Part shown: positions 4,714-58,900 of the stretch, piece after piece
How the letters are laid out: each line of letters begins with the position of its first letter
How positions within the stretch are numbered: the stretch's first letter is position 1
NCBI GenBank assembly: GCA_905250025.1
Contig: CAJNOJ010000358.1
Location: forward strand, 30,308 to 94,307
DNA from: Adineta ricciae
Lineage: Eukaryota; Rotifera; Eurotatoria; Adinetida; Adinetidae
DNA length: 64,000 nucleotides
Direction: 5' to 3'
Notes under the pieces: generated by a model
What the model saw: the letters and a program-made list of their open reading frames with translations, nothing else
Told to the model about the DNA's origin: nothing
Databases searched by the model: none
Translations under genes and position numbers: made by a program

Positions 4714-6576
4714 TCATTCTCGAAGTGAGTATTGTATTCCGATCTGCTTGACCCAATCTTCTACTTCACCATAAATTCCACAAACTCGATAGTCACCGTG
4801 ATCAGGAACCGTCAGTTCATGTTCACTTCCACCGTTAATATTCCCAAACCATTCACTACGTTTTTTATTAGTCATAATCTGTACCGCATCGATCCAAGCA
4901 CCACTTCTGACACCAAAACCTTGAATAAACTCCCCATTCTCCATGGGAAAGTCGTGTGGTGAACCACCACGCTTTCCAAAGAGAAATGAGCGTTCTCTAG
5001 TGACAAATTCCAAACCATCCAAAGCAAAACCTGAATGAACTACGACTTTGATCAAGGGGTCAGCAGGCAATAGAATCGTTGATGGCGAACCAGTCTGTTG
5101 TCCAAATTTCATTGATTTCCAAACTTTTCCTATTTCAGGAATGTGTTGAGTTTGCAGTAAATCATCAATGTCACCGATAGTAACATCCGTTCCATCAGTA
5201 GCGATGACATGTACGTTGATTTTTCCTTCTCCATTAACTCGATTTCGTAATTCTTCTTTCCAAAGAATAACCTCAGCAGCTGGATTTTCAGTGTAATCTA
5301 CCCATGATTTTGCAACTTCATCATGTTCCAGGTAGAATTCAATAGCCAAAATTCCGTTCGCTGATTTCAGTAGAATACCTTCATCAATTGCAACACATTG
5401 TATATGACTTTTCCAGAACGATTCATCATCGGGTAATGCAAAACATGGATGGATGCGAAATCGAATCATATCCATTCGATGCCATGAGCATTCATTTCCA
5501 TCGAGAGCTGGTGGACCAGGTGGTTCAACGGCACAGAACGATCGATTCAAACGAATGTAATCTCTCATCATCACACCATCCGGTTCATGTGGACAACCGA
5601 GTGCATGTCCGATTTCGTGCAGCATCGCTCCAAGACCAACATTGCATGCGATCCAATATTTATCACCTTCGGCATCAATACCGCAATACTTTGTGTCAAC
5701 AGTCCGTTCATTCGTAAAACATGGAATGACGTCTTCCAAAGTTGTTGGCCACGAAAAAAGAGTATGAGAACCAAAGATTCCTACGGAGTATTTTGCATTA
5801 ATACCTCCTGACCCTAATGCCGCATGACCTGTAATCAGATTATTGTCATAATGTGAATCTAAGAGTAGGACTGCGACATAATTTCTCTCTTCTTGAAATT
5901 CAGAACGAATGGCTTCTAACGCAATATCGAATAGACTGTCTTTGTCTTTTGCATTTGAATTTTGTTGTGCTCGGTTTGGATCTCGAATTTCAGCAGTTGT
6001 ATATCTACTTCTGAGAATCCGAATGTTTACCGTGTTTCTAGATGATTGATCTACACTACTGAGTGTATCAGGTTGATATGATTCATCAAGACGGAATGTT
6101 CGATGATTGAAGCCATTGGAAAACATTTGAGAAGCGGTATATGATTGCCATAAATAGCCTGCGAGACGTAATCTTTTGATAGCTGTCTCTAGATCTGGTG
6201 GATATTCACAATCGGGAGTGTCGTCGAATGTAAGTGGTGAATCACACGCAACGAGAATGCATAAATTAAGTGGAGGAATTTGTAAAAGTGGAATGTAATT
6301 AACTGGCCAAATCGATTCCCAAGTTTGCTGCCTATCAATAAAATTCAATTGAATCAAATTTTCACCAGATGATAAATGTATTAATGCTTTGAAGCGTCCA
6401 TTTTTCACTGGAAATGTTTGCGTTGGAAAATTATTCTCATGTGCAATGATTTGAATGTTGCCATTGGCTGTTGTTGATGATCCACATGTTCCTTCTACCA
6501 GAAGTAAACGACAATGAACTTCACTATCTGCAGGATGTGAAGTGATACACGGCGTGAAATCCACAGTATTCGCCAT
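4714..6576 (-). CDS. Zinc metallopeptidase (YIL108W/PF12044-like) with jacalin-like lectin domain
   Basis: A 620-residue intronless protein. The catalytic region carries an extended zinc motif HEIGHALGCPH at residues 320-330: H320, H324 and H330 as ligands and E321 as the general base. It follows a predicted N-terminal all-beta region (1-100). Residues about 500-620 look like a jacalin-type beta-prism (GKRGGSPHDF, GVRSGAWIDAVQI, DYRVCGIYGE). This order and length match the fungal putative metalloproteinase family typified by yeast YIL108W, whose role is unknown. No signal peptide is seen, so it is probably cytosolic. The start at 6576 is the only ATG giving the full N-terminal domain. The lack of introns, among neighbours that have them, and the fungal-type architecture suggest horizontal acquisition, but that is an inference. 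All catalytic residues are present. Confidence 0.88.
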   Translation of the reverse strand: MANTVDFTPCITSHPADSEVHCRLLLVEGTCGSSTTANGNIQIIAHENNFPTQTFPVKNGRFKALIHLSSGENLIQLNFIDRQQTWESIWPVNYIPLLQIPPLNLCILVACDSPLTFDDTPDCEYPPDLETAIKRLRLAGYLWQSYTASQMFSNGFNHRTFRLDESYQPDTLSSVDQSSRNTVNIRILRSRYTTAEIRDPNRAQQNSNAKDKDSLFDIALEAIRSEFQEERNYVAVLLLDSHYDNNLITGHAALGSGGINAKYSVGIFGSHTLFSWPTTLEDVIPCFTNERTVDTKYCGIDAEGDKYWIACNVGLGAMLHEIGHALGCPHEPDGVMMRDYIRLNRSFCAVEPPGPPALDGNECSWHRMDMIRFRIHPCFALPDDESFWKSHIQCVAIDEGILLKSANGILAIEFYLEHDEVAKSWVDYTENPAAEVILWKEELRNRVNGEGKINVHVIATDGTDVTIGDIDDLLQTQHIPEIGKVWKSMKFGQQTGSPSTILLPADPLIKVVVHSGFALDGLEFVTRERSFLFGKRGGSPHDFPMENGEFIQGFGVRSGAWIDAVQIMTNKKRSEWFGNINGGSEHELTVPDHGDYRVCGIYGEVEDWVKQIGIQYSLRE

Positions 6577-7038
6577 TGCAGACGGTTCTTTTTTAATGGA
6601 GAAAGAGTTAAAACTATTGCCTTAGATAAATAAAGGAGAAAAACGAAAAAAGCGCTGCGCTCTTATACAAGTGAATGTTGTTTTTTTTCTACATAAAGAA
6701 TGAATAAGACATGAGTCGTGTGACTCAGTTTATTTGAAGCAAAGTTTCAAATGATGAAAAAACAAAAATTCTGAATCACATGTGTGACAATCTTTTTCGC
6801 ATGGTCTGTACGCATGCTATTTGTCCCTACTTTGGTGCATTTTTATGTACTTTGGCCTTATCCTTCCTTCCTTTCTATCGAGAGAAGGGTATATAAACGT
6901 GTGTTTTGTATTAGAACGAGGCGATTGATGATAGGAAGAAATAAAGAAAGACATGATTCTACCGGGATACACATCTCTTCCATCAGAATTCGTCACAACA
7001 TGCACATGGGACACTGCAACAATTGTAATGGAAACAAC
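6577..7038. other. No gene recognised
   Basis: Spacer between the metallopeptidase start and the SGNH remnant. Several short frames on both strands overlap here, but none resembles a protein family. Confidence 0.45.
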
Positions 7039-19852: not shown

Positions 19853-21201
19853 TTAGTACTTTTTTCTAACTCAGACCGATCTTCCATTGTTCAAATGAAA
19901 CAAAACTAACAATTTAAAATAACGCACATTCATCGACATTTAAGACAGATTCTATTTCTGTTCGATTATTTGAACAATATTTAAACAAAGAAAAATCAAC
20001 ATTATGCGCACTTTCATCTAACTTCTATTCTATGGGTGTTTGTATTGATTTTTCTCAAATTTACAATTGTCACGTATATAAAACAAATGTAAATATCAAT
20101 TGAAGACTCAATTGGTGACAAAAACTTCCTGATGGGAAGAACCTCGAGAATTATTGTTCGAAAGAATCTTGAAGGCGAGGGAAAGGAATGCAAAATGTTG
20201 TGTTCAGTCGGTGAAGTATCATTTATATTTGCATAGAATTAAATGAGATCTTAACTAGTGAAAAGTAATCAAAATCATAGAACAAATAACAATAATATTA
20301 TGCGGCGGAATATTTTATAAAAAAAAAGTTTGATAAATTCGATGGTTGTTGTTCATGTGAATCTTATTAGATATCTTTCTTATCGAAGTTTGAAGAGCAG
20401 TGATTTGTATATGAGCAACGTGACATACTCATCTATTTCTTGCTTTATATAAAAAACACTACTTTGTTTTCAAAGTAACAGGACTTATGTTTTCAATTAT
20501 CATCATCATATGTCATTTCAATGAACAGATGTAAATAGGCAAGTGAATGAGATCGTTCTCCTTAATTATTTATTCCTATATTTAATTCTGAAAAAGGATA
20601 GAAGAAAAAGTCTAATAGAAAAAACAAAAGTTAACAATAAATATCGTTACTTATTTCAGTTAAATAAGTTCAAATGGTAATGCCCCTATCTACTATTGTC
20701 AATTCAAGTCTATTTAACTATTGCAACACCACATTTCAATCTTCATCATACAGATTGGACAAACGAACATGAAATTGATGTTACATTACAACATGGTTGC
20801 CTTAACGTTTCAGCTACAACTGAGGGCGTGGATGCGAGTGCAGCCCGCAAGAGGGAAGTCACCCACAGCCTTAGCATGATTCATAACAATTAGTTCCCGA
20901 TCGCCGCGTAGTTCATTGATTGATAGTTAATAATCAGTTAGTTAACGATTCATAATCAATTAGTTACAAGGTTAAAAGCCGACAACTCGAAGAAGACATT
21001 TAATACTCGAATCGAGTTAACGATTTGTACACTACTCAGGTTGATAGGATATTTCGAACATGAGAGAGTAATTTTTATTTCAAAAATCGAACAAATTACG
21101 TTTTTATGTAATTAGAAATGTGCAGGAATAGAGTCGATATAAAAATGTCTTCATATTAACCTCTTTAATATAAATAAATCGCCAGTAGTCTTTTCCAATA
21201 A
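19853..21201. other. No gene recognised
   Basis: About 1.35 kb of AT-rich DNA. A 65-codon plus-strand frame at 20696-20893 has no motif. Near 20900-20965 a short degenerate repeat of TTAGTTAAYGATTCATAATCA type is seen, too short to name. Confidence 0.4.
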
Positions 21202-24200
21202 TTACAAACATGCATTCAGAAAAATGGTAATATCACCAGATTTCTTATTTGTAACTACTAAATCGATTTTTTTATCTTTATTGAAATCAGCTGAAACCAA
21301 AGCACTTGGCCAGACATGTGTTGCATATGTTCTTTGAAAAAGAAGACTTGTGGTTCCATTGCCAAATAATATGCTGATGTCGTTGGCTCCTTGGTTGACA
21401 ACAGCGATATCGATTTTGTCATCCCGATTAAAATCACCTGAGAGCAAAGTAGTAGGTCCGGTTCCTACTTTGAATTTCATTAATGTCTGAAAAGTTCCGT
21501 TCTGATTACCATACAAAATACTAATCGTATTTTCACCCTGATTGGCGGTAACTAAATCCATATAGTGATCATTATTGAAATCAATAGATATGATGGAATA
21601 TGGATTGGGACCAGTTTTGTACATAATATGAGACTGGAATGTTCCATTACCCCGTCCAAATAATACGCTGACATTTTTTCCATAATAATTACTCACTGCT
21701 AAATCTAAGATGTTATCATCATTGAAGTATCCTGCAGTTAGCGAAGTTGGCTGATTACCCACCGGAAATTGGAAGTTATTACTGGTATTGAAAGTATGAT
21801 TTTTCCTGGCCAACAGTATAATGATGGAGTTGTTGTTTTGATTAGTCAATGCTAAATCCAAATTTGAATCACCATTGAAATCGGCAGTTAATACAAAAGT
21901 AGCATTGAATGGAAGTGAATAATCTATTTGATTTCCAAGCGTACCATCTGCGCTACCATATAATATACGAAGCATGTTATTGTTATAGATTAGAATTAGA
22001 TCTAACATCTTATCATTGTTAATGTCACCTGATGTCATAAATTGATGATTTTGTTTCATTGCATACGGTACTCGCCCTTCAAAAAGTCCGTTTCCACTGC
22101 CTAATAGAATGTAATTTGCTGCATCTCCGTGGCAGATGATAACTAAATCCAGATGATTATCTAGATTAACATCGAATGACACCAATGATCTTGGTCCGGA
22201 ACCAACGGCATATTTCGTTTGTGACTGAAATTTTCCATTTCCACGGTTGAGAAATACACTAACAGTTCTGTCGTTGACGTTAGTCACTGCTATATCCGTA
22301 TAGTTATCATGATTAAAGTCGCCAAAAGCAACACCGCTAGGAATAGCTCCTGCAGGATACGGCACACAATCCTGGAAAGTACCATTTAAATTTCCAAACA
22401 ATACACAGAAAGTATTCGAACTCCAATTAGGAACTGCCAAGTCTAGTATGCCATCATTGTTAAAGTCAGCAGCATTCATGCTATTTGGCCCAGACTGCGT
22501 GTCAAATGTGTACTGATCTTGAAATGTTCCATCACCATTACCTATCAGTATACCAACGTTGTCATATTCAAAGTTCGATACTGCTAGATCCAGTATGCCA
22601 TCATAGTTAAAGTCACGTGTTATCGAATTATCTGCGCCTGGATAAACATAATAAATAACTTGGTCCTGGAATGTAGCATTGCCATTACCAAGTAATATAC
22701 TAATAGTACCATTATCCTGATTGACTATTGACAGATCGATGATTGAGTCATTGTTAAAGTCACCTGTCGCTATTGAACGAGGCCGCTGGCCAGTTGGATA
22801 TAATGTACGGTCAGAGAATGTTCCATCACCAACACCTAATAGAACGCTTACGGTATTTTCTTTAAGGTTAGTTGCTACAAGATCTAGAATTCGATCATTA
22901 TTAACATCAGCTGCCGCAACGGAACCCACACTGGCACCAATTTGAAATCGAGTCTGAATACCAAATGAGCCATCACTATTAGCAAGAAGTACACTGAGTG
23001 CATTGTCGTCTTCGTTTCCTATGATTAAATCCGTAATGTTATCTTTGTTCAAATCAGCTGCTGCAATACTAATGGGAGAAATACCAGTTACAAAAGTTAT
23101 TTCAATTGGAAAAGTTCCTGCACTGTTGCCAAATAAAATGTAAAGCGGATTGGTATCTTCGGTAAGAACTGCTACATCTGAGTTTGTGTCGTTATTAAAA
23201 TCTGCCACCACCAGATAGCTTGGAGAAGATCCAATTGTGAAACTTGATGAGGTTAGATATGGTTCCATACAAACATATGCTGTAATTAGATAGGTCAGCG
23301 CCGTATATTTAGTATAAGTCTTTATCGAAAGACATACCTGGTGTTTTAGTCGTCGATCTTAGACCTAACACACATCCCAGAATAATTGCTCCAACAACTA
23401 AAAGTGCTAATAAGCATATTGGAATGTTATACCTTTTCTTGCGATACCATGAACGTCTAAAAGAATATTTTAGAATTTCTTGTCAGATGTGAAAGCAGGG
23501 TTTACTTGATCTTTGGATAGATATGAGCGCCTAAATATAGAAGTTAACTAACTCGTGAAAGTGAATCGAAAAGCTCTTCGTCTACCTTCGAAAGGAGGTT
23601 CGAGTAAGGTTACTTCAGGAATCACTTGTTTCAAATGGATAATATGAAGATCAGGTGCTGGACTAAATAATGATTGAACAATCATATGAGTACCAGGTAG
23701 AAGAAGTATTTCCTCTTCCGTGACAAAGTGAGAATGAGCACGTATTGTTCGGCCATTGAACACTTCGACTGAAAACAGTGTTCGACTACCTTCGTTACCC
23801 AAATACATATTATTTTCCAGAACAGTCAATTCAGTCGTACACGACGAGAACGCCCACCATGTAACAGGAGTTCCAGGAGGAAATTCTGCGCTCAAGTTTT
23901 TCGTCACACCTCTCCAAACTGTCAATGGTGGAACACATGGTAATTTCACCAGAGCACTTAAGAAAAGTTTCATGTATTTGAAATAAGGTTGCAGTTCCGA
24001 ACGAGGGCACGTCTTCAATGTGTAGTTGAGCATGGAATAAAGACTACGATGTGGTGCTGCCCATTCAATTGAATATAGACGAATAGCTGCACTCTCATCT
24101 ATGGTTAAATCATCTGGCGGTTCCTTTGGTGTTTCATCAAGTGCCATTTGGACATAGAATGACAAATTATAGAGAATACTATCTAGTGGAGCACAAGCCT

Positions 24201-24621
24201 CTCCAAGTGATAAGAGAGGTTCTTCGGCGTATTCGATGAGAGGATCGAGATCTGTTGGAGGAGGGTTGTCCGCTGTTGTATTTTTTGTATATGGATCTTT
24301 TGCATCAAGTTCAGCATCTCGATTATTTACCATACCACCATCATTGCCGATAGTGTCTAGTGACTTGTCCAACCTTTTATCATCGATATCCATTATAAAA
24401 GTCTGAGAATCCATTCCGCGAAGCTCATTAGAGAACACAGTAACATCCTTAGTCTGTGTACGAGCATTTCTTGTCTTTTTACGCGGTTTTTCATAACGAG
24501 TCCGTGGATCATACATTGGTTGAGGCTCAAAAATCGCATTGTCCTCGTGGAAATTGAACATTGGTGAAGTTTGATTGTGAATATTTCTTGTGTGCAGTTT
24601 GCTCTTGTTATCGTAGTCCAT
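21202..24621 (-). CDS. ADP-ribosyltransferase - TM - FG-GAP repeat fusion, four exons
   Basis: Exons 24621-23586, 23530-23506 (25 nt), 23456-23338 and 23279-21202 join through three GT-AG introns (55, 49 and 58 bp). The frame stays open throughout: 1085 residues. Residues about 130-340 are an arginine-specific ADP-ribosyltransferase fold with the R-S-E signature: R237 (VWRGVT), S259-S260 (FSSCT) and the E-x-E as EEE 302-304 (TEEEILLLPG). NAD-dependent mono-ADP-ribosylation is expected. Residues about 365-386 are a TM helix preceded by RKKR, so the enzyme should face the cytosol. From 398 on there are 14 FG-GAP/VCBS repeats with Ca-binding DxNxDxxxD loops (FNNDGILDLAV), the integrin-alpha propeller type, predicted extracellular. 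If the first intron is retained, translation stops at 23548 and a soluble 357-residue enzyme results. Two adjacent genes cannot be excluded, but neither piece alone has a sensible start or anchor. Confidence 0.72.
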
Positions 24622-34664: not shown

Positions 34665-36469
34665 ATGCCTTTGACACAACTTTATCTCTTCTCCCTCATC
34701 ATCTCCGCTTGCTTCAGTCTCAACGAATCCATCCATCACTCGTTGATCAAATTAACTGATACTGGTTTTCAATTCCTACCGATTAACTACCAAGCTCAAC
34801 TCCTATCGACATCCATCATTCAGACTAATCTCTTCAAAACATGTTTCATGTTATGTAATAATGACATTTCATGTCGAATCTACGATATCAATGCACTCCT
34901 ACCCAACCAATGTCGACTCTTTCAAGGTGACATCAATCTGCATGGTACTATCGTCTCATCCTCATTCACCAACTCAAGAGTTGGCTCCGTTCAGTATTCG
35001 GCTAGTCTCTATTCGAACTATGGCCANNNNNNNNNNNNNNNNNNNNNNNNNNNNNNNNNNNNNNNNNNNNNNNNNNNNNNNNNNNNATTTCATGTCGAAT
35101 CTACGATATCAATGCACTCCTACCCAACCAATGTCGACTCTTTCAAGGTGACATCAATCTGCATGGTACTATCGTCTCATCCTCATTCACCAACTCAAGA
35201 GTTGGCTCCGTTCAGTATTCGGCTAGTCTCTATTCGAACTATGGCCAATCATGTACTGCAAATACAATCGAAAATCGATATCTTGTTTGTGGAAGTGATT
35301 TGACATGGACATGTCCACCGAACACATACTGGAACAGTTTGACATTGATGTGTTCACCTCAATCACCAATACTTGGCTCAACTTGTCAACAGAACATGAG
35401 TATGTGTCGAGAAGATCTCAACTATACATGTCTTCGATTCAATCAATGTGGACGTATGTATATTGAGACACCTGCTCGCAGTATCCCAATCTTTGTTATT
35501 TCAGCTCTCAAAGTACTGGAAGGTACGACGATAGTCGATGGCAATACAGTCGTTGCAAAAAGTGCGACTATTGGTTTATCTGGTCCGACGAGTATTTTGG
35601 TTAACAAGACAGCGGATAATGCTATCATTGTGGTTGATAGTGCTTATGGACAAGTGATAAGTTTTCACGACGATGTTTCCAATATCAGCAATGTGACACT
35701 CGTGGCCAAAAACTGGACTGGTGGGAATATGTTCAACACACCCTACACTGCATTCATTCATCCAAGTCAAAAGTCAGTATTATATGTTAGTGACTACTAT
35801 GGTCATTGTATTTACAAGATCGATAATATGCAAGTAGTGTCTCCAGTACCAAAGGTGGTAGCTGGTGTCGAAGGATCTTCAGGGAGCACAGCGAATAAGT
35901 TGAATTGTCCATATGGAATAGCAGTTGATAGTGCTGGTAATCTGTATGTGGCCGATAGCCAAAATCATCGTGTGATGCGTTATGCTGCAAACGCCACTTC
36001 AGGAGTTAGGATAGCCGGTACAGGTACAGCCGGTAGTGATTCTCTTTCTCTAAATCGACCATATGGAATGTATCTGGATGAAGAGAATTCTTATATCTAT
36101 GTGGTTGATGCATTGAACGGTCGCATTCAGCGTTTTTCATTGTCCGGTGGATCACCGAATAATGGCACGACTGTCGCTGGTGGAAACGGTGGAGGAAGAG
36201 GCAACAATCAACTTTATTTTCCTTTTGATATCTGCTTAACGAAAAACAAGAGAACAATGTACATTGCGGATGCTGGGAACAATCGAATCGTACGATGGAA
36301 TATCGGCGAGAAATCTGGTGTTAACATTGCTGGAGATGTGAATGGAAATTCTGGCAGTAGTGCAAGTATGTTGAATTATCCGTATAGTATGGGTCTGAAT
36401 GATGAAGAGACATTTCTGTATGTCGTCGATAACGCAAATAAGCGCATTATAAGATTTCAGCTTATTTAA
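34665..36469 (+). CDS. PAN-like/NHL-repeat secreted protein, copy I
   Basis: Signal peptide (starting MPLTQLYLFSLIISACF), then a Cys-rich PAN/apple-like domain (LFKTCFMLCNNDISCRIYD) and a second Cys region (CPPNTYWNS, CREDLNYTCLRFNQCG). About five to six NHL/beta-propeller repeats follow to the stop (YGIAVDSAGNLYVADSQNHR, YIYVVDALNGRIQRFS, MYIADAGNNRIVRWN). There is no membrane anchor, so it is probably secreted or attached to other surface proteins. The frame is interrupted only by the assembly gap at 35027-35086. If the duplicated 161 bp are merged, the frame is continuous. A 51-bp GTATGT...TTTCAG segment (35454-35504) is probably an in-phase intron. This is the only copy in the tandem set without a disabling change. 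Its role is unknown; NHL propellers usually bind proteins or glycans. Confidence 0.78.
34866..35026 (+). repeat. 161-bp direct duplicate, left of gap
   Basis: Matches 35087-35247, immediately on the other side of the 60-N gap. The most economical reading is that two contigs overlap here and were not merged. Confidence 0.85.
35027..35086. other. Assembly gap (60 N)
   Basis: Run of 60 unresolved bases inside NHL copy I, flanked by a direct duplicate. The gap is likely artificial: the two contigs overlap, so no sequence need be missing. Confidence 0.95.
35087..35247 (+). repeat. 161-bp direct duplicate, right of gap
   Basis: Second copy of 34866-35026. The correct continuation of the gene is 35026 to 35248. 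Confidence 0.85.
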
Positions 36470-45356: not shown

Positions 45357-46798
45357 ATGTCTTTGACACAACTTTATCTCTTCTCTCTCATTATTTTCTC
45401 TTGCTTCAATCTCAACGCATGCATCCGTCACTCGCTCATCAAATTAACTGATGCTGGTTTTCAATTCCAACCGATTAACTACCAAGCTCAACTCCTATCG
45501 ATATCCATCATTCAGACTGATCTCTTCAAAACGTGTTTCATGTTATGTAATAATGACATTTCATGTCGAATCTATGATATCAATGCACTCCTACTCAACC
45601 AATGTCGACTCTTTCAAGGTGATATCAATCTACATGGTACTATCATCTCATCATCATTCACCAACTCACGAGTTCGCTCTGTTCAGCTCAATCACCAATA
45701 CTTGGCTCACCTTGCCAACAGAACATGAGTATGTGTCGAGAAGATATCAACTATACATGTCTTCGCTTCAATCAATGTGGACGTATGTATATTGACATAC
45801 CTACTTTGAATATCCGAATCTTTGTTTTTTCAGCTCTTAAAGTACTGGAAGGTACGACGATAGTCGATGGCAACACAGTCATTGCAAAAAGTGTAACTGT
45901 TGGTTTATCTGGTCCGACGAGTATTCTGGTTAACAAAACAGTGGACAATGCCATCATTGTGGTTGATAGTGCTTATGGACAAGTGATAAGCTTTCACGAC
46001 GACGTTTCCAATATCAGCAATGTCACACTCGTGGCAAAAAACTGGACTGGTGGAAATATGTTCAACACACCGTACACTGCATTCATTCATTCAAGTCAAA
46101 AGTCAGTATTGTATGTTACTGATTATTATGGTCATTGTGTTTACAAGATCGATAATATGCAAGTTGTGTCTCCAGTACCAAACGTGGTTGCTGGCGTTAA
46201 AGGCTCTTTTGGTAATGGTACTAACAAGCTGTATTATCCATATAGGATAGCAGTTGATAGTGCGGGTAATCTGTATATTACTGATAGTCGAAATCATCGT
46301 GTGATGCGTTATGCTGCCAACGCCACTTCAGGAGTTATGATAGCCGGCACAGGTACATCTGGAAGTGATTCTCTTTCTCTGAATCGACCATATGGAATGT
46401 ATTTGGATGAAGACAATTCTTATATCTATGTGGTTGATGCATTGAATAGTCGTATTCAACGTTTTTCCTTGTCTGGTGGATCGCCAAATAATGGCACAAC
46501 TGTGGCTGGCGGAAATGGCAATGGATTAGACAACAATCAGCTCTATCTTCCTTTTGATATCTGCTTAACGAAAAACAAGAGAACAATGTACATTGCGGAT
46601 ACTGGAAATAACCGAATCGTGCGTTGGAATATCGGTGAGGCATCTGGTGTTAATATCGCTGGAGATGTGAATGGAAATTCGGGCAGTAGTGCAAGTATGT
46701 TTGATCAGCCATACAGCGTAGCTCTGAATGATAACGAAACATTTTTGTATGTGGCCGATAAAACGAACAGTCGTATTATAAGATTTGAACTTATCTAA
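45357..46798 (+). pseudogene. PAN-like/NHL-repeat protein, copy III, frameshifted
   Basis: The 5' part has the signal peptide and PAN-like domain. Compared with copy II, 142 bp (39558-39699 there) are missing at 45686/45687, and a GTTCAG repeat lies at the ends of the missing piece. The loss shifts the frame to a stop at 45726-45728. The second Cys region is lost. The NHL part then stays open from 45725 to the stop at 46798 (LVAKNWTGGNMFNTPYTAFI, YYPYRIAVDSAGNLYITDSR), in all its repeats. It contains the 51-bp in-phase candidate intron at 45783-45833. The coding region after the lesion is well preserved, so the event is recent, or the 3' half is still translated from an internal start. Confidence 0.75.
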
Positions 46799-55977: not shown

Positions 55978-58900
55978 ATGGCGATGAAAATTAATTTTCT
56001 AATATGTGTAATAATGATAACGATGGTCAAAGAAATATCTAGTAAGTGCTTACAGAATTTTCATGTTGTAAAATGTTTCATCAGACAAATCGAACAATAA
56101 AAAAGATTCGGTATACTCTTTTATGATGTAACACCAGCTATCATACATATATTCTTCAATAGCTCTCACAACGATAATATACAACTTCTGATTTCCTTCA
56201 AAATTGACAGAAGCAACTGAGATAATATCTCACGTACTATACTTTTCGTCGCCTGAGTGCATAAAGGGCGTATTTGCGACATTTACAACTGACAAGTTTC
56301 TACTTCCTTGGCAAAGATAGGAGTTAGTCCTTGGGCTGTGCTATAGAATGTATTCTATTTTTACTTAACGATGTATCAATTCAGCAAAAGAGTGAATGCT
56401 CATATTGGAGATGGTAGTATTATTATTCTCTCATCATTTTTAATGAAAATCAAACTATCATCTCAACTATCGTGGAATCAAAATGGCACCACAGTGGCAG
56501 GAAATGCATCTGGAATATCAGGATCATCACTCTCAGAACTTAATCGTCCCGTCGGTATATCAATTACAGACAACGATATTCTTTATATTTCTGATCAATT
56601 CAATCATCGAGTCGTTGTTATTGATCTTTCCCGAACTACCAACACCTTTGCTATCGGTTCTGAACAAGGTTCTGCGCTCGGCCGTTTCAAGCAGCCTATT
56701 GATGTTTTCGTTTTCAATTCATCACTCTACGTCACAGACGAACACAATAACAGAATACAAAATATGAGACTGGATGGTTCAAATCTCACTACGGCGTATA
56801 ACACAACCAGTCTAGGACAACCACTCTATCTTTATATTGATTCTTATGAGAATGTTTATGTCACGTCCAGGACCACTCATAGTGTATTTGTTTTTCGACC
56901 AAATTCTACAAATGGTACCAGAGTTGCTGGAAATGGGACTCAAGGATCTACTAATGAACAACTCGATTGGCCATATGGAATATTTGTGAGTGACAACGGT
57001 ACCATCTATGTTGCAGATCGCAATAATCATCGAATCATGAAATGGCTCGCAGGAGCGTCATCTGGCATCCGTGTGGCTGGTGATGGAACATTTGGTTACA
57101 ATTTAACACAAGTGAATTCACCCACGAATGTGATTGTTGATGAGGATGAATTCATCTATATCACTGAAGCGATTGGCTCGCGGATCACCCGATGGGCTCC
57201 TAACTCATCATATGGAACATGCATCGTTGCATGTTCGGGAACAACAGGAACTGGACCAAATCAACTCAACCAGCCTCACTCGTTAGGATTCGATAGTTTT
57301 GGTTCACTCTATGTGAGCGAGTGGTCAAACAATAGAGTACAAAAGTTTGAACTTCTCAACTATCCAGGTGAGTTGTCCAATAGTTACAAAATGGGATCGC
57401 TTTTATAGACAATAGTTTCTGACGGTAAATATTTCTACTCATCTGCATTCTGTATTTTTGCTCTAGTTCCATACAATCAACCGAATCTCGACTCCAATGC
57501 AACATGGAGTCAATGTGGTGTGACTTTCATCGATAAAACTACCTTTCGCTCATTTGCACGCGCCTTTTTCATCGATTCAAATAACACTCTTTATTTAGTT
57601 GACTATGTCAGCAGTCGAATTCTCATCTGGCACGATCACATTACTTATCCATCACGTGAACTGTCTGCTACTTTGTTCGAATACACTGGTTTATTTGTGA
57701 CACTCAATGGCGACATTTTTTTCCAGAATGGTAACCAAACAGGTCGCATCGACAAGTTTTCATCAAACTCAAACATCAGTCAACTTGTGACGATGTTTTC
57801 AGGAAACTGCTATAGTCTTTTTGTAGACATTCGAGACACTCTCTACTGTTCTCTACATGAAGAACATCGAGTAGTGACAGCATCACTCTCTGATAACAAT
57901 CGTTCAGCGGTGACAATAGCAGGAACAAGTTCAGGAGGACCACAATCAGATCAACTTTGGTATCCTTGGGGAATATTTGTGGATATCAGTTTTAGTCTTT
58001 ATGTGGCTGACGAGGTAAACGATCGAATTCAACTATTTCGACGAGGAGAACGCAGTGGAACTACTGTTGCTGGAAAGAACATTCCTAATGGTTTGACGTT
58101 GAATAAGCCGACGGATGTGGTATTGGATGGAAATGGGTTTTTGTACATAGCTGATAATAAGAACAATCGTATAATTCGAATAGGAGATGGTGACTTTGAG
58201 TGCATTACTGGTTGTGCAAAGATAGGAGAATCGGCATCAAACCAACTTAACCTTGCATATTCTCTTCGACTAGACAGTGTGGGAAACCTGTATGTTGCTG
58301 ACGAAGCAAATCGTCGCATCCAACAATTCAGTGTGTCAAGTAATTCATGTCGTAAGTGTCTTCATACTTTTCAGCTATCTCAATTAGTATTTTGATAACT
58401 GCCCATCGTTATTCTTTTACAGAAACATCTTCTTTCGTCACGACTGCATTGACATCGACACATCCAGGTATGTCATGAGAACTCCTTATTCCTCCACATC
58501 AATCCTTTCCCTTTTAGATAATTCAACATCATTGTTCTGGAATGCACATTCATGTGGTATTAATACCTCATACATTGGTTCATATTGTAACATCTCTGGT
58601 AACATTTGCCATGTACAAAATCCCTGTCTCCATACTGGCAATTGCACTAGTCTGAATAACAATCAAGACTATTATTGTTCGTGTCCACTTGGTTTCTCTG
58701 GCAAACGGTGTCAAGTTGACGAACGTCCTTGTAAGCCGAGCAGATGTCTCAACAATGGTGAATTCTCTTCTTCCTCTGAATAGATCAAAAAGAGTTTTGT
58801 ATTTGTAGGCATTTGTAATACGACATCGACCTCCACCTTCAACTGCACATGTTCATCTGGTTACGAAGGAACGAGATGTGAAACTAAGATTAACTATTGT

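Follow-up and report, generated by a model that had tools for sequence, protein, structure and literature searches.

Here we describe a gene on the minus strand of a 64,000-nucleotide (nt) stretch of the Adineta ricciae genome (contig CAJNOJ010000358.1, positions 30,308 to 94,307; hereafter the window), whose predicted product joins an ADP-ribosyltransferase (ART) domain to an FG-GAP repeat domain through one transmembrane (TM) helix. The two parts occupy separate open frames, 24630-23548 for ART and 23358-21202 for FG-GAP. A sequence-only reading had linked them through three GT-AG introns of 55, 49 and 58 nt, in phases 1, 2 and 1, with a 25-nt microexon, and this join holds in the sequence itself and on comparison with paralogues. 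From the start ATG at 24621, exons 24621-23586, 23530-23506, 23456-23338 and 23279-21202 give a product of 1085 amino acids (aa) with no internal stops. Exon 1 (23586-24621) encodes a hydrophilic N-terminal tail (aa 1-118) and the ART domain (aa 119-345), as supported by its open frame, its Pfam match and its ratio of nonsynonymous to synonymous divergence (dN/dS). Intron 1 (23531-23585) and intron 2 (23457-23505) enclose the microexon (23506-23530), which reads (G)AHIYPKI(K). Exon 3 (23338-23456, 119 nt) supplies a basic stretch and the TM helix, and intron 3 (23280-23337) separates it from exon 4 (21202-23279), a 718-aa open frame that carries the ectodomain and the stop codon.

The genome that we searched, 130.46 Mb in 1033 contigs with the window included, contains at least 121 matches to the ART part (117 of 307 candidates were scored), and the 30 closest ART loci (L031 to L060, L031 being the window copy) were compared with the window gene by spliced alignment. 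Position and phase are kept in 26 of these 30 loci for intron 1 and likewise in 26 for intron 2, the decayed locus L059 being counted in the latter; both introns, with a microexon of the same size and phases between them, are found in 24 loci, window copy included. Loci L057 and L058 have intron 1 and lack intron 2, with microexon and TM in one exon, and L054 has intron 2 and lacks intron 1, with the end of ART and the microexon peptide in one frame. Three loci (L053, L059 and L060) gave no fit to the splice pattern of the window; the linker of L060 is longer and, read by eye from the genomic sequence, has the peptide GAQLLPIQ where the window has GAHIYPKI. The first query in these alignments was the earlier gene model itself. 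Further queries were linker peptides from L057 and L058, in which the microexon-TM frame is contiguous, and from L054, in which the ART-microexon frame is contiguous; each keeps one manually made joint, and together they cover both joints. All three set the window introns at 23585-23531 and 23505-23457, and with each of them 24 of the other 27 loci, counting the window copy, again yielded this 25-nt microexon. When the L057 linker peptide plus the window's own FG-GAP start was used as the query, the window scored 332, a value that none of 100 dinucleotide-shuffled linkers reached (best 261). This control and the conservation across loci rule out chance splice sites. For 16 of the 30 loci the alignment puts a phase-1 intron 3 at the residue where the window gene has it; in the rest its place is different or ambiguous, because the start of the ectodomain diverges. 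By these comparisons the two open frames are almost certainly one intron-containing gene. Upstream of it, some 45 nt ahead of the ATG, a polypyrimidine tract on the minus strand (24680-24666) closes with TTTAG and could be an acceptor site for trans-splicing or for an intron in the 5′ untranslated region.

The ART domain was recognised by Pfam (PF01129) at aa 167-311 with a weak score of 24.3 bits, above the cut-off of 22.3; NCBIfam gave no match for the ART part, and phmmer searches of the ART and FG-GAP parts against PDB returned none. A 13-row ART profile matched structures 4xzj (E = 0.05) and 1gxy (E = 0.23) weakly, and in this weak alignment the W-R-G, F-S-S and E-x-E motifs lie near the corresponding motifs of both. 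The first catalytic motif, W-R-G, has R237 (23911-23913), an arginine in all 30 close ARTs. The second, F-S-S, has S259-S260 (23842-23847), with S260 in 29 of 30 (the exception is L059) and S259 in 28 of 30 (L049 has T). The E302-x-E304 of arginine-specific ARTs (23710-23718) has both glutamates in 29 of 29 intact copies, and L059 has a stop codon within this stretch. The R-S-E enzyme named by the sequence-only reading can now be written as R-S-E-x-E, with all of these residues kept among close copies, and we consider it likely from its sequence that the window protein is catalytically active. The C-terminal part (21205-23241) has 14 FG-GAP repeats with a period of 48-50 aa, each with a DxNxDxxxD-like calcium loop in which, in the eleventh repeat, Y replaces the first D; the loop count agrees with the 14 integrin-like repeats first proposed. 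Pfam reports FG-GAP_3 at 275 bits in 13 stretches and FG-GAP at 137 bits, and the NCBIfam domain XAC2610_fam matches within this part at 46.4 bits.

The fusion of ART and FG-GAP in a single product is not confined to the window and turns out to be the layout of a multi-copy family. By tblastn, FG-GAP sequence follows ART at 25 of the 30 close loci and at none of the 30 best PF01129 places (L001 to L030) within flanks of up to 1.5 kb. Among 55 of the 121 ART places (the C407 gene being counted twice), 23 have, on their own strand and no more than 2.5 kb away, one of the 104 FG-GAP matches considered. Four FG-GAP-linked ART places, two on C73, C221:63133 and one on C677, lie beyond the 25, TM not having been read there, which brings the count to at least 29 ART places with FG-GAP behind them, alleles and homeologues included. 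Full-length copies on C121 and C641 give stop-free models, and the copy on C407 does so provided that a 44-nt gap near aa 97-110 is taken as an additional short intron. When 59 ARTs are placed in a midpoint-rooted tree, the close set of 30, all but one with TM, forms a single clade with support 1.0; some other ART frames in the genome have no clear TM.

Two further arrangements were observed within this family. L051 and L053 (C350:24297-26314) are tandem ART copies, of which the upstream one lacks a TM and an ectodomain of its own; their 100% identity comes at least in part from overlap of the compared stretches, and the ART exons differ, with a synonymous distance (dS) of 0.098. L061 (C407:76800-79999) is an FG-GAP copy that keeps approximately the last 24 aa of ART, the microexon and the TM exon, and is, judged by what it retains, a 5′-truncated duplicate; the frame that precedes it (103-1143) resembles a seven-TM protein by eye and has no Pfam match.

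At two loci the same ART-TM part is followed by an ectodomain of another type. In L060:2-1060:- (C211), the TM exon is followed by a 56-nt phase-1 intron and a frame that matches Laminin_G_3 at 50.4 bits (cut-off 27.6); its sub-threshold matches to Laminin_G_2 and to a clostridial receptor-binding lectin model are taken as the common lectin fold. In L037:3057-3765:+ (C142), the TM exon is followed by a 557-nt phase-1 intron and four Cys-rich repeats of the form C-N-D-G-V-x-N-G-x-E...D-C-G-G-x-C, with eight cysteines in each of three complete copies, a fourth that is incomplete in the sequence compared, and phase-1 introns of 49-50 nt between them. The unit matched no Pfam family at E 0.1. Both joints are known from one locus each, as genomic sequence with fitting phases, and were found with queries from those same loci. 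If they are correct, the ART-TM part would serve as a chassis on which ectodomains are swapped at intron 3.

The TM helix (aa 365-386, 23360-23425) is the sole strongly hydrophobic segment of the window protein, with a Kyte-Doolittle hydropathy of 2.96 against at most 1.45 for every other 19-aa window, and flanking charges of +7 and +1. Of the 29 loci with TM, 27 have more positive charge in the 15 residues preceding the helix than in the 15 following it, with a tie in L057 and a reversal in L052. Judged by hydropathy, the only property considered here, the first 75 aa of the window protein contain no hydrophobic stretch (the highest mean over 15 aa is -0.33). The eight-cysteine, disulfide-type repeats of L037 and the calcium loops of the FG-GAP copies, all C-terminal of the helix, would suit the extracellular side. 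The type II topology proposed earlier gains support from the charge bias, from the absence of any other strongly hydrophobic segment and from the position of the L037 repeats; we regard this orientation as likely on sequence features, and a cytosolic ART domain as highly probable.

The two sides of the membrane evolve at different rates. Between the window gene and the copies on C121 or C407, dN/dS is 0.07-0.09 for ART and 0-0.08 for the microexon and TM (48 codons), and 0.30-0.32 for the N-terminal tail and 0.37-0.41 for FG-GAP. The FG-GAP value exceeds that of ART in all five pairs that are similar throughout (L046/L047, L031/L033, L050/L052, L041/L044 and L055/L056). Within the ectodomain, in the three pairs of C358, C121 and C407, dN/dS is 0.46-0.58 in repeats 1-8 and 0.17-0.23 in repeats 9-14, and 98 of the 126 variable sites among 679 fall in repeats 1-8. 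By these estimates the ectodomain is the faster part, with every dN/dS below 1, so that positive selection is not implied. Among the 23 loci that have five or more loop motifs, every one of the 253 pairs is less alike in FG-GAP (mean identity 0.40) than in ART (mean 0.72).

Protein selection alone is ruled out as the source of this difference in three pairs by their silent-site distances: dS for ART and FG-GAP is 0.019 and 1.92 in L035/L036, 0.061 and 1.17 in L042/L043, and 0.114 and 1.10 in L045/L048. (L051/L053 were left out of this argument, the FG-GAP frame of L053 not being its own, and L034/L059 has no FG-GAP value.) Since silent sites diverge too, exchange or conversion is needed in these pairs. 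L035 and L036 are inverted copies 12 kb apart on C81, 96-100% identical from 700 nt before to approximately 200 nt after the end of the ART exon, and then 44-80% identical for approximately 550 nt. Among L042, L043, L045 and L048 (C482 and C448), FG-GAP dS is smallest for L042-L045 (0.116) and L043-L048 (0.120) and about 1.1-1.3 across these groups, whereas ART dS is smallest for L042-L043 (0.061) and L045-L048 (0.114). Nucleotide trees give support 1.0 to both FG-GAP groups and to ART L045+L048 and do not group L042+L043; the ART protein tree pairs L043+L048 instead (0.975). In both sets of loci, we take these patterns to mean that the ART exon has undergone gene conversion or been exchanged, leaving mixed tracts. 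Decoupled histories of ART and ectodomain were not seen in the five throughout-similar pairs. The picture from sequence comparison is of an ART exon that is strongly conserved and, it appears, partly homogenised between copies, and of an ectodomain that diverges.

Taken together, these features are best explained, we believe with somewhat better than even confidence, by a family of enzyme-linked receptors: single-pass type II proteins with a cytosolic ART, an extracellular propeller and swappable ectodomains. The N-terminal half would be a cytosolic arginine-type mono-ADP-ribosyltransferase; in the C-terminal half, 14 FG-GAP blades would form a calcium-dependent double propeller (about 2 x 7) outside the cell. 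A ligand or a neighbouring surface would bind the propeller and rearrange or cluster it; the ART domains inside would be brought together or opened, and would then ADP-ribosylate arginines on nearby cytosolic proteins, consuming nicotinamide adenine dinucleotide (NAD). Members would keep the ART-TM part, and their ectodomains would vary either because the propeller diverges or because the phase-1 intron 3 allows one ectodomain to be exchanged for another. Surface location, ligand binding, regulated catalysis and targets are what we infer from this layout, and the phrase "new type of receptor", used in the sequence-only reading, would apply if they are right. A broader version, which we put forward tentatively and with less than even confidence, is that such surface receptors signal by ADP-ribosylation as a class, with an ART-TM chassis kept partly uniform by gene conversion, with FG-GAP, Laminin-G-like and Cys-rich ectodomains acquired by phase-1 exon shuffling, and with tens of NAD-dependent receptors in one genome.

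The resemblance to known proteins is partial in each case. Enzyme-linked receptors such as receptor tyrosine kinases and receptor guanylyl cyclases have an ectodomain, a single TM and an inner enzyme, with a shared enzyme module and varied ectodomains, and the enzyme domains known from them are kinases, phosphatases and cyclases; here the enzyme is an ADP-ribosyltransferase, the order is inverted with the enzyme N-terminal, and the likeness is one of anatomy alone. Integrin alpha chains have an extracellular FG-GAP calcium-loop propeller and one TM, and are type I proteins with seven blades and no enzyme, whereas the window protein has 14 FG-GAP_3-type repeats, an N-terminal enzyme domain and, by charge, a type II orientation, and so falls outside the integrin alpha pattern. 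PARP16 (ARTD15) is likewise an ADP-ribosyltransferase anchored in the membrane, but belongs to another ART family (PARP/ARTD), is located in the endoplasmic reticulum (ER) and, to our knowledge, has no folded ectodomain. Its anchor is a tail helix, and it is needed for ER-stress signalling (PMC7695420). The vertebrate ecto-ARTs (ART1-5; rat ART2 is 1gxy) share the ART domain with R-S-E-x-E, down to the weak profile match to 1gxy given above. For chicken ART4, a signal peptide and a glycosylphosphatidylinositol (GPI) anchor are predicted (PMC2576468); in contrast to such ecto-ARTs, the window protein has no signal-like segment, its TM is internal, and its C-terminal part is a large ectodomain of repeats.

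Several observations weigh against a cytosolic, ligand-gated enzyme beneath a folded propeller. Single-sequence structure models of the ART and FG-GAP parts, made with no alignment supplied, reached a predicted local distance difference test score of just 38, for which reason the propeller fold rests on Pfam and on the repeat period; we infer from these both the fold and the grouping of its blades. An intact R-S-E-x-E is no guarantee of activity, by analogy with human ART4, in which restoring R-S-E-x-E did not bring activity back (PMC2576468). The difference in rate is smaller at greater distance: in comparisons of the three copies with the distant C641 copy, ART dN/dS is 0.07-0.08 and that of FG-GAP just 0.13-0.21, with silent sites saturated, and in L042/L043 the ratio is higher for ART (0.26) than for FG-GAP (0.22). 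As regards topology, C143 is kept in 30 of 30 and C229 in 29 of 30 TM-type ARTs, and both are found in 0 of 29 other ARTs at the aligned columns (L001, L012, L015 and L017 have a cysteine close to the second position, off the aligned column). The two could form a disulfide, which would argue against a cytosolic ART; because the 30 TM-type ARTs are one clade, they may also be two inherited changes and not a selected pair. In L047, alone among the 30 loci, the open frame has a strongly hydrophobic segment (mean 2.20) close to its first ATG, which may not be the true start. N-glycosylation sequons number 6 on the ART side against 2.4 expected (13 of 500 shuffles reach 6) and 16 on the FG-GAP side against 12.1 expected (69 of 500 reach 16), so that the propeller side is not favoured; as a test of topology these counts were set aside as uninformative or mildly contrary.

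Two alternatives, which overlap, are the main ones. The first, which we consider unlikely, is a surface or secretory-pathway enzyme whose propeller anchors it to matrix or to partner cells, with ART acting constitutively on juxtamembrane cytosolic proteins and no gating by ligand. FG-GAP propellers do serve as adhesion modules in integrins, and the greater constraint on repeats 9-14 than on repeats 1-8 suggests that part of the ectodomain may be structural; however, ectodomain types that change over a constant ART-TM part, and an ectodomain that evolves faster than ART, fit recognition better. The second, to which we give the same low weight, is a defence or self-recognition device, whose ectodomains would sense microbes or non-self and whose ART would hit the cell's own cytosolic targets or deplete NAD, halting cell or intruder. 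Many copies, a faster ectodomain and a partly homogenised effector exon would be expected of it, and expanded repeat families of A. vaga have been proposed to act in defence, signalling and recognition (PMC3846280). Fast change of the ectodomain, though, is also compatible with adhesion or chemosensing, and dN/dS below 1 gives no signal of positive selection.

Less probable still, in our estimation about half as much as either of these, is the opposite placement, in which ART, like the vertebrate ecto-ARTs, would face the exterior or the lumen and C143 and C229 would be joined as a disulfide. The restriction of this pair, at aligned columns, to the TM clade, the sequon enrichment on the ART side and the N-terminal stretch of L047 all point that way. 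Against it stand the window protein's N-terminal part, free of any signal-like segment, the basic stretch before the TM, and the calcium-loop repeats, and in L037 the eight-cysteine repeats, across the membrane; moreover, opposite K-T-C-L-G of rat ART2 the window side has no cysteine in the weak alignment. That a soluble ART and an FG-GAP protein are merely neighbouring genes is largely refuted and has only a very slight chance of being right: an in-frame stop inside intron 1 (23550-23548) and the occurrence of ART frames without clear TM would allow it, but linker exons with fixed phases recur in 24 of 30 loci, paralogues missing one intron have a continuous frame, and the 306-nt linker between the two parts has no AATAAA or ATTAAA, such signals appearing 3′ of the FG-GAP stop at 21169, 21079 and 21004, which leaves little room for the two transcripts, one ending near the TAG at 23548, that the sequence-only reading had offered as an alternative.

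Were the enzyme-linked receptor interpretation true, ADP-ribosyltransferase would join the receptor enzymes as a new output and would couple surface recognition to NAD. The family would also constitute a natural experiment, with near-identical ART exons on different ectodomains and three ectodomain types on one chassis, and would illustrate a way in which exon shuffling and gene conversion may let an animal expand a receptor into many copies and refit them. No description of the ART and FG-GAP combination was found in the open-licence papers searched, although automatically annotated proteins of the same layout may exist in databases, and no bdelloid or rotifer ART of such a layout was found there. 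FG-GAP is among the expanded families of A. vaga (PMC3846280), and the sets of A. vaga genes that respond to spaceflight, or to desiccation and radiation, are enriched for the gene ontology term ADP-ribosylation (PMC12220480 and PMC10809525). This enrichment fits expressed ART families and does not single out the ART-TM-FG-GAP family.

Elsewhere in the window, frames of another repeat family, NHL, lie on the plus strand at 35006-36469, 45623-46798 and 56347-57408 (Pfam 58.9, 68.8 and 78.1 bits), the first of which includes a stretch that reads as X (N). On the minus strand, 4717-6621 encodes a Metallopeptidase (PF12044, 426 bits) whose C-terminal part is a Jacalin-like lectin domain (43.1 bits).

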